DNA from: Pseudonocardiales bacterium
GTDB lineage: Bacteria; Actinomycetota; Actinomycetes; Mycobacteriales; Jatrophihabitantaceae
NCBI GenBank assembly: GCA_030840295.1
Contig: JAVEET010000115.1
Span: forward strand, 1 to 32,276
DNA: 32,276 nt
Direction of reading: 5' to 3'
The notes under the pieces were generated by a model that was given only the letters and a program-made list of their open reading frames with translations, had not been told where the DNA came from and ran no database searches. Of the stretch, positions 24,013 to 29,564 are shown in pieces (positions within the stretch are counted from its first letter, which is position 1; each line of letters starts with the position of its first letter). The position numbers and the translations under genes were made by a program.

Positions 24013-24098
24013 CGGCACAACGTCGGCTGCACGTAGCCCGACGCCCCCGGTGGTCACCGAACCCCTGGTGGGTTGGCGCTGCGTGCCGACCACATATC

Positions 24099-24258
24099 GC
24101 TCATCCAGAGGGGCAGAGGGACCGGCCCGTTGAAGCCCCGGCAACCACCGCGACAGCTCGCATCCACGTCCACGCGTCAGCGTGAACATGGGGTCGCGAG
24201 GTAGGTGCCAACTCCGGCCCGGACAGTCGCCATGACGCCCGGGAAAGATGAGGAGAGG
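24099..24258 (+). promoter_or_regulatory. SAM-I (S-box) riboswitch in the thrC leader
   Basis: The leader shows the SAM-I core in order: closing stem P1 CTCATC (24100-24105), AGAGGGGCAGAGGGACCGG for the kink-turn side (24107-24125), GCCCCGGCAACC (24135-24146), an extended P3 arm (CGCGAC... GTCGCGAGG), GGTGCCAACTCC (24204-24215), and GAAAGATGAG (24243-24252), whose GATGAG closes P1. These match the known SAM-binding aptamer very well. The 3' P1 strand runs directly into GAGGAGAGG, the ribosome-binding site of thrC, 8-11 bases before its ATG. SAM binding should thus hide the site and block translation. No terminator-like U-run follows, so translational control is likely. Confidence 0.92.
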
Positions 24259-24266
24259 CCTCGGAA

Positions 24267-25544
24267 ATGACTGCTGTAATCGATCGCCCCGCTGGTACGT
24301 CCGGCGAAACCCCCGCGTCCGGTCTGGTGTGCCGCAACTGCGGCGCGACCTACCCGCTCGGCGCCCAACATGCGTGTTTCGAGTGTTTCGGTCCCCTGGA
24401 GATCGGCTACGACGCCGAGCGGTTGGCCCGGGTGACCCGAGAGCAGATCGCGGCCGGACCGCATTCGATCTGGCGTTACGCCGGTCTGTTACCGACCGGC
24501 CAGAATGCGCAGACTCGCGTCGACTCGGGTACCGGAATGACGCCGTTGATCCGCGCGGATCGGCTCGCCGACCGGCTGGGTTTCACCGCACCGGTCTGGG
24601 TGAAGGACGATTCGGCCAACCCGACCCATTCGTTCAAGGATCGCGTGGTGTCCGTCGCGATCACTGCCGCTCGAGAACTCGGTTTCAGCCGCATCGCCTG
24701 CGCCTCGACCGGCAACCTGGCGAATTCGGTGGCGGCGCACGCTGCGCGGATCGGCATGGATTCGATCGTGTTCATCCCCACGGATCTCGAGAAGGCCAAG
24801 ATCACCCAGACCGCGGTATACGGTGGCACCCTGGTGGCCGTCCAAGGCAGTTACGACGACGTCAATCGGCTGTGCAGCGAGCTGGCCGAGACCGACGAGT
24901 TCGAGAGCACGGCCTTCGTCAATGTCAACGTTCGGCCTTACTACGCCGAGGGATCCAAGACGCTCGGCTTCGAGGTGGCTGAGCAGCTCGGCTGGCGCCT
25001 ACCCCAGCAGATCGTGGCACCGATGGCCTCGGGTTCGCTGTTGACCAAGGTGCACAAGGCCTTCAAGGAACTGCAGTCGATCGGGCTGGTCGAGGCGACG
25101 GACTACCGGGTCTACGGTGCACAGTCCAGCGGCTGCTCGCCGATCGCCCAGGCCTTCGCCGATGGCACGGACCGGGTGGTCCCGGTCAAGCCGACCGGAA
25201 TAGCCAAGTCCCTCAATATCGGTAACCCGGCCGACGGTCCATACGCCCTCGATGCCGTGCGTTCCACCGGCGGGGCGATGGCCCACGTGAGCGATGACGA
25301 GATCCGGGACGGGATCCAGCTGCTGGCCCAGACGTGTGGCGTGTTCACCGAAACCGCAGGCGGCGTCACCACGGCGGTCTTGAAGAAGCTGGTGGAAAGC
25401 GGTCAGCTCGACACCACCCGGGAGACGGTCATCTACAACACCGGTGACGGGCTGAAGACCCTGGACGCGGTCGCCGAGCGGGTCGGTCCCACCGCGGTGA
25501 TCCCGCCGACGCTCAAGGGGATGCGGTCAGCCGGATTGCTGTAG
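24267..25544 (+). CDS. thrC: threonine synthase
   Basis: A 425-aa PLP enzyme converting O-phosphohomoserine to threonine and phosphate, the last step of threonine synthesis. The PLP lysine is Lys124 in NPTHSFKDRVVSVA. The phosphate/PLP loop is STGNLANSVAAHAA, and the domain core includes YAEGSKTLGFEVAEQLGW (residues GSKTLGFE). The N-terminus carries a Cys4 zinc-ribbon-like element, CRNC (22-25) and CFEC (37-40), as in actinobacterial long-form ThrC. GVTTAVLKKLVESG and NTGDGLKTLD close the protein. The ATG is fixed by the GAGGAGAGG site. Its leader is a SAM-I riboswitch, so expression should fall as SAM rises; no other threonine or methionine gene lies nearby. Confidence 0.95.
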   Translation: MTAVIDRPAGTSGETPASGLVCRNCGATYPLGAQHACFECFGPLEIGYDAERLARVTREQIAAGPHSIWRYAGLLPTGQNAQTRVDSGTGMTPLIRADRLADRLGFTAPVWVKDDSANPTHSFKDRVVSVAITAARELGFSRIACASTGNLANSVAAHAARIGMDSIVFIPTDLEKAKITQTAVYGGTLVAVQGSYDDVNRLCSELAETDEFESTAFVNVNVRPYYAEGSKTLGFEVAEQLGWRLPQQIVAPMASGSLLTKVHKAFKELQSIGLVEATDYRVYGAQSSGCSPIAQAFADGTDRVVPVKPTGIAKSLNIGNPADGPYALDAVRSTGGAMAHVSDDEIRDGIQLLAQTCGVFTETAGGVTTAVLKKLVESGQLDTTRETVIYNTGDGLKTLDAVAERVGPTAVIPPTLKGMRSAGLL

Positions 25545-25563: not shown

Positions 25564-26058
25564 TCAGCTTTCGTGGGTGGCCCGGTAGTACAACGGAAGG
25601 GCGATCCACAGCAAGACGAAGATCAGGCCGAGAATCGAAGTCGTGAGGACGGCAAACGTCCGTCCCACGACATAGTCGAAGATCAGCAGGACGCCACTGA
25701 GTACCGACAGCAGCAGGAAGGTGGTGCCCGCTATGGCCAACCGGCTGGCGGTCATCACCAGTTGCTCCTTCAGCCCGTGGCGGAACACCAGGCGGTGAAA
25801 GGAAACCGGTGCCACCAGCAGTGCAACCGACAAGGTGCAGCAGATCAGGGTCAGCACGTAAACGGCACGCTGAAAGCTGTCGATGCTCTGAAATCGCTGC
25901 TGGAACGCGACCGACAGCATGAAGGCGAAGAGGATTTGCACGCCGGTCTCGGACACCCGCAGTTCCTGGAGGAGCTCTCCGTAATTGCGATCCAGCCGGT
26001 CCGCTTCGCTCTCGTTGCGGCCGTCACCCGCGGCGGTGTGCCGGGTATCCTCGGGCAT
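25564..26058 (-). CDS. DUF6328 membrane protein
   Basis: A 164-aa protein. A hydrophilic N-terminus (about 1-25) is followed by LLQELRVSETGVQILFAFML, the hallmark start of DUF6328, and then LSVAFQQRF. Four membrane helices follow (about 40-55, 66-86, 107-128 and 137-157), and a short tail ends the protein. The conserved Arg-Val-Ser-x-Thr-Gly-Val-Gln before helix one is known in many actinobacterial proteins; the function is unknown. It converges with thrC across 19 bp and is divergent from the LpqH-like gene. Confidence 0.85.
   Translation of the reverse strand: MPEDTRHTAAGDGRNESEADRLDRNYGELLQELRVSETGVQILFAFMLSVAFQQRFQSIDSFQRAVYVLTLICCTLSVALLVAPVSFHRLVFRHGLKEQLVMTASRLAIAGTTFLLLSVLSGVLLIFDYVVGRTFAVLTTSILGLIFVLLWIALPLYYRATHES

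Positions 26059-27346: not shown

Positions 27347-29564
<2,218 letters not shown>

Follow-up and report, generated by a model that had tools for sequence, protein, structure and literature searches.

The window, a stretch of 32,276 nucleotides from a Pseudonocardiales bacterium, carries a SAM-I (S-box) riboswitch which, with a probability of roughly 0.83, represses the metM gene directly behind it at the level of translation initiation. The arrangement most likely provides ordinary feedback control and is of a kind known from Streptomyces; it differs from the described type in that metO is missing beside metM, both in the window and in the close clade.

In the proposed scheme, MetM would use activated sulfur to convert O-phosphohomoserine to homocysteine. 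With ample SAM, the P1 helix of the aptamer would close, taking up the first bases of the Shine-Dalgarno (SD) sequence and setting the folded aptamer against the rest of it; little MetM would then be produced, leaving O-phosphohomoserine to be converted to threonine by a separate ThrC. At low SAM, P1 would open and its 3' strand could be captured by a hairpin in which 24250–24253 pairs with 24259–24262. The GAGG in the loop of this hairpin would be free for the ribosome, allowing the synthesis of homocysteine, methionine and SAM.

In Streptomyces albulus, MetM is a ThrC-related, O-phosphohomoserine-dependent homocysteine synthase; a SAM riboswitch lies upstream of its gene, and a sulfur-carrier gene has been named metO (Hasebe et al. 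2024, doi 10.1128/aem.01247-24, as described in PMC12172450). As far as that account goes, the two systems are alike in that a ThrC-like gene, from one and the same clade, directly follows a SAM riboswitch, and in having a separate canonical ThrC. They differ in that the window and its close clade lack an adjacent metO, that the P3 insert in the window is very long, and that the window system is known from its sequence. In S. lividans TK24, an RF00162 aptamer precedes SLIV_16930-SLIV_16925, which is listed under 'Threonine biosynthesis' (PMC8079986). The aptamer family and the puzzling threonine label are the same as in the window, whereas the S. lividans operon has two genes and the riboswitch of the window precedes a single one. 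Beyond these two articles, literature searches yielded nothing on actinobacterial thrC genes preceded by a SAM riboswitch.

Because the genes of this clade pass the general threonine synthase model, the SAM switch preceding them seems paradoxical, and methionine synthesis seems to have a gap. Both difficulties disappear for many Actinomycetota once the genes are read as metM. The annotation rule offered for such genes is the combination of a SAM-I leader, a four-cysteine N-terminus and a second ThrC elsewhere.

The gene behind the riboswitch

The gene at 24267–25544 (+), of a type annotated as threonine synthase, encodes a protein of 425 amino acids which matches the PALP family (PF00291) and passes the TIGR00260 thrC model, with 258.8 bits against a cut-off of 167.1. 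Its relatives of known structure are all named threonine synthase or threonine dehydratase. Both observations favour a working threonine synthase, the target named in the original prediction, through which SAM would lower threonine synthesis or balance the aspartate family. TIGR00260 does not separate MetM from ThrC. In a tree, the window protein clusters with its Streptomyces counterparts and is separated from canonical ThrC by a split with a support of 100; the sequence of S. albulus MetM was outside this tree, and membership of its clade is assigned through the Streptomyces relatives that carry SAM-I and metO. The Streptomyces-clade proteins are 57–59% identical to the window protein. Among 296 Actinomycetota genomes surveyed, 110 carry a gene of the window type, and the 110 proteins differ from 19 ThrC at 27 positions that are fixed differently in the two groups. 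The former share four nearly invariant N-terminal cysteines, which the latter lack.

The window protein also falls outside the actinobacterial ThrC of the hom-thrC-thrB cluster, a role filled by a different gene of the same genome (C194). This canonical thrC is 37% identical to the window gene, scores 315 bits against TIGR00260 and stands in the order lysA-hom-thrC-thrB-rho, where hom and thrB are each recognised by their own model. Threonine synthesis is thus already provided for.

Standard methionine routes require the acylation of homoserine, which is the branch point in bacteria using MetA or MetX. No MetA was found in the window genome, and the best match to MetX scores 90 bits, compared with 370–480 bits for most true MetX proteins. 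This hydrolase (C26) was rejected as MetX on its score and on its neighbours, which by eye resemble a formamidase and an ABC transporter. There are two clear PF01053 proteins; one satisfies the cystathionine gamma-synthase model, and neither passes the models for MetY or MetZ. MetH (1472 bits) and MetE (1004 bits) are both present; with MetA, MetY and MetZ not found and no convincing MetX, it follows that homocysteine is used while its standard sources are missing. The assembly consists of 375 contigs with 4.65 Mb and is 98.5% complete, so that a MetX may have been overlooked, but the complete genome G192, from the same metM clade, agrees with it. Plant cystathionine gamma-synthase uses O-phosphohomoserine, and the cystathionine gamma-synthase of the window genome may likewise provide a route to homocysteine.

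A working threonine synthase is very unlikely given the canonical thrC with its hom and thrB, the co-occurrence of both genes in 107 of the 110 carriers, the absence of any other homocysteine route found in the window genome, and the metO that adjoins the gene in most relatives. Instead, the window gene is most likely metM and, as judged from its sequence, would encode an O-phosphohomoserine-dependent homocysteine synthase. It had been noted that an OFF switch on threonine synthase would lower threonine synthesis when SAM is plentiful, so that either an ON switch or a coupling of the whole aspartate family had to be considered. With MetM as the target, the puzzle dissolves, as it is most likely its own production that SAM represses. 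The competition envisaged at O-phosphohomoserine is probably real, but at that branch point the gene under control belongs to the methionine arm and not to the threonine arm. Plant threonine synthase is activated by SAM through the protein. The plant enzyme (1e5x, 2c2b) is a distant homologue of the window protein (E 1e-28), and its control by SAM is allosteric whereas that in the window resides in the RNA.

An intermediate reading is that the enzyme is bifunctional, forming homocysteine in the presence of a sulfur donor and some threonine in its absence; the switch would still serve methionine supply. A cyanobacterial member of the group, 51.6% identical to S. albulus MetM, has threonine synthase and threonine deaminase activities in vitro (PMC12172450), and by analogy other members of the MetM group may be bifunctional. 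For the window enzyme this is improbable, as a second activity is unnecessary alongside a canonical ThrC and the 27 positions distinguish the two groups consistently.

The aptamer and its expression platform

A cmscan search of the whole window returned a single Rfam match, to RF00162 at 24098–24254 (+), which scores 72.7 bits where the gathering cut-off is 44.4, with an E value of 2.2e-15. All 108 model positions are aligned, indicating a full-length aptamer, and the SAM-I aptamer first recognised from the letters of the leader is thereby confirmed by the covariance search that had been suggested as its check. There is no second RF00162 match in the 4.65 Mb assembly. In the covariance alignment, P1–P4 are present together with the conserved core stretches AGAGGGGC, GAGGGAC, UGAAGCCCCGGCAACC, GGUGCCAA and GAAAGAU, while the P3 arm is extended by an insert of 48 nt, compared with 7 in the model. 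P1 consists of six standard pairs between CTCATC (24100–24105, +) and GATGAG (24247–24252, +), the latter in a position common to 77 leaders; the two outermost pairs of the model are non-standard in the window. The folding energy of the leader is ordinary (z = -0.27), and it is the covariance score, together with the retention of the same leader in relatives, that argues against a chance match. The leader would be expected to bind SAM. Its assignment as the leader of a methionine-, cysteine- or SAM-related gene holds only if the MetM reading is correct.

As originally described, GATGAG runs into GAGGAGAGG, and AGGAG (24251–24255) overlaps P1 by 2 nt. The SD region, AGGAGAGG (24251–24258, +), ends in GAGG (24255–24258), 8 nt before the ATG at 24267. 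The start codon is separated from the end of the aptamer by 12 nt and from P1 by 14 nt, and P1 covers part of the SD region only. The linker can form a possible alternative hairpin, GAGG[AGAGG]CCUC (24250–24262, +), of -4.9 kcal/mol (z -2.3 versus shuffled linkers), which is mutually exclusive with P1, leaves GAGG in its loop and may act as the counterpart of P1 when SAM is scarce. In 44 of 56 distinct leaders, the downstream linker pairs with three or more bases of the P1 3' strand, where shuffled linkers lead to an expectation of about 22; as the leaders are related, this excess is suggestive only. In several relatives it is the SD itself that the hairpin closes off.

A P1 3' strand can be recognised in 77 leaders, the window included. 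Of these, the start codon lies within 20 nt of P1 in 76; the SD overlaps P1 in 59 and starts no more than 3 nt from it in a further 15, making 74 together. Scans of the window leader found neither a terminator nor a promoter. Control at the ribosome-binding site, as first suggested, is supported by the negative terminator scan and by the overlapping or abutting of P1 and SD in the window and in the 74 leaders, and translational OFF control is the best model for the window leader.

Transcription termination would be the alternative to control at the ribosome-binding site. In the linker between SAM-I and metM of G246, G064, G263, G288, G218 and G236 (L048, L052, L058, L062, L067 and L061, respectively), a hairpin is followed by a T-run, and these lineages seem to use termination instead of SD masking with the same aptamer and gene. 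Related leaders of this kind (e.g. G246, G064, G236) speak for termination; in the window, however, P1 and the ATG are just 14 nt apart, no terminator-like site was found in that interval, and termination is unlikely. A Rho-dependent variant may operate at the window leader.

The opposite direction of control, in which SAM would activate expression, is extremely improbable. No support for it was found; P1, the helix that SAM stabilises, takes SD bases, and the same aptamer class stands elsewhere before metX, where repression by the end product is expected. With a target other than thrC, neither the ON switch nor coupling of the whole aspartate family is retained.

Distribution among the Actinomycetota

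A survey of the leaders in relatives, proposed earlier as a check, covered 80 named loci, of which 79 have upstream DNA. RF00162 stands just before the gene in 77 of these; the two exceptions are L130 and the cyanobacterial L152. In the phylum-wide sample of 296 genomes, RF00162 occurs within 260 nt upstream of the gene in at least 66 of the 110 carriers.

Carriers of the gene tend to lack the acylation route. MetX and MetA are both absent from 75 of the 110 carriers, compared with 63 of the 186 non-carriers, and one or other enzyme is present in 35 carriers. This corresponds to an odds ratio of 0.24 (P 1e-8, 296 genomes) for the association of the gene with MetX/MetA, a statistic that ignores kinship.

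In 23 surveyed genomes, RF00162 is found 147–243 nt upstream of metX (for example G011:C1:383844-385177). These genomes belong to one family (f19) and are without metM. The same aptamer family thus precedes a step that commits carbon to homocysteine, but the enzyme is unrelated to MetM, the branch point is another one, and the aptamer lies at the distance given from its gene.

MetO, CysO and the supply of sulfur

A search with PF02597 places metO, or a metO-like gene, directly downstream of the gene in at least 26 of 29 surveyed relatives, and metO adjoins the gene in 37 of the 80 named loci. None was found beside the window gene. It is absent from all Micromonosporaceae, Geodermatophilaceae and Glycomycetaceae loci examined, which together with the window gene form one supported clade, and is also missing from some loci of Pseudonocardiaceae, Nakamurella, Nocardioidaceae and Frankiaceae. 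An adjacent metO is an accompanying feature of MetM and not a part of the enzyme. The metO-less clade raises a concrete question, namely where the sulfur of methionine comes from.

In the complete genome G192, which belongs to this clade, exactly three ThiS-family proteins were found, CysO (in mec-cysO-cysM), ThiS and MoaD, and no MetO. The nearest relative of MetO there is CysO, which is 54% identical to a Streptomyces-clade MetO. The window genome has CysO, ThiS and MoaD and, in addition, an orphan protein of 112 amino acids. The CysO-CysM-Mec system is present in the window genome, and its transfer of sulfur from a carrier to a PLP enzyme is the logic proposed for MetO-MetM; the enzyme and product are different, however, and a sharing of CysO with MetM is hypothetical.

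The CysO of the window genome (L008:1495-1770, G000:C287) ends in AVAGGSF and that of G192 (L188) in AVAGGAFGFVAAR, so that the tails run past the di-glycine as GGSF and GGAFGFVAAR, respectively. The Streptomyces-clade CysO likewise has two extra residues. As the di-glycine is masked by these residues, CysO would have to be trimmed before use, probably by Mec. The sulfur donor in the metO-less clade is probably either CysO or free sulfide. A more specific scheme, in which this metM clade lost MetO and CysO, its tail trimmed by Mec, feeds both CysM for cysteine and MetM for methionine, is put forward tentatively and is rather doubtful.

The orphan ThiS-family protein (L010:1498-1836, G000:C351) ends in SVAGG and is about 40% identical to both MetO and CysO; on its sequence it is another candidate sulfur carrier. 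By eye, its gene adjoins one for a repeat-containing, sialidase-like protein. At the site occupied by metO in other lineages, the window has a DUF6328 gene (25564–26058, -), convergent with metM. Further downstream there is a GroEL-like gene (27720–29564, +), with no groES seen adjacent to it, and the listed start of its open reading frame lies upstream of the likely true start.
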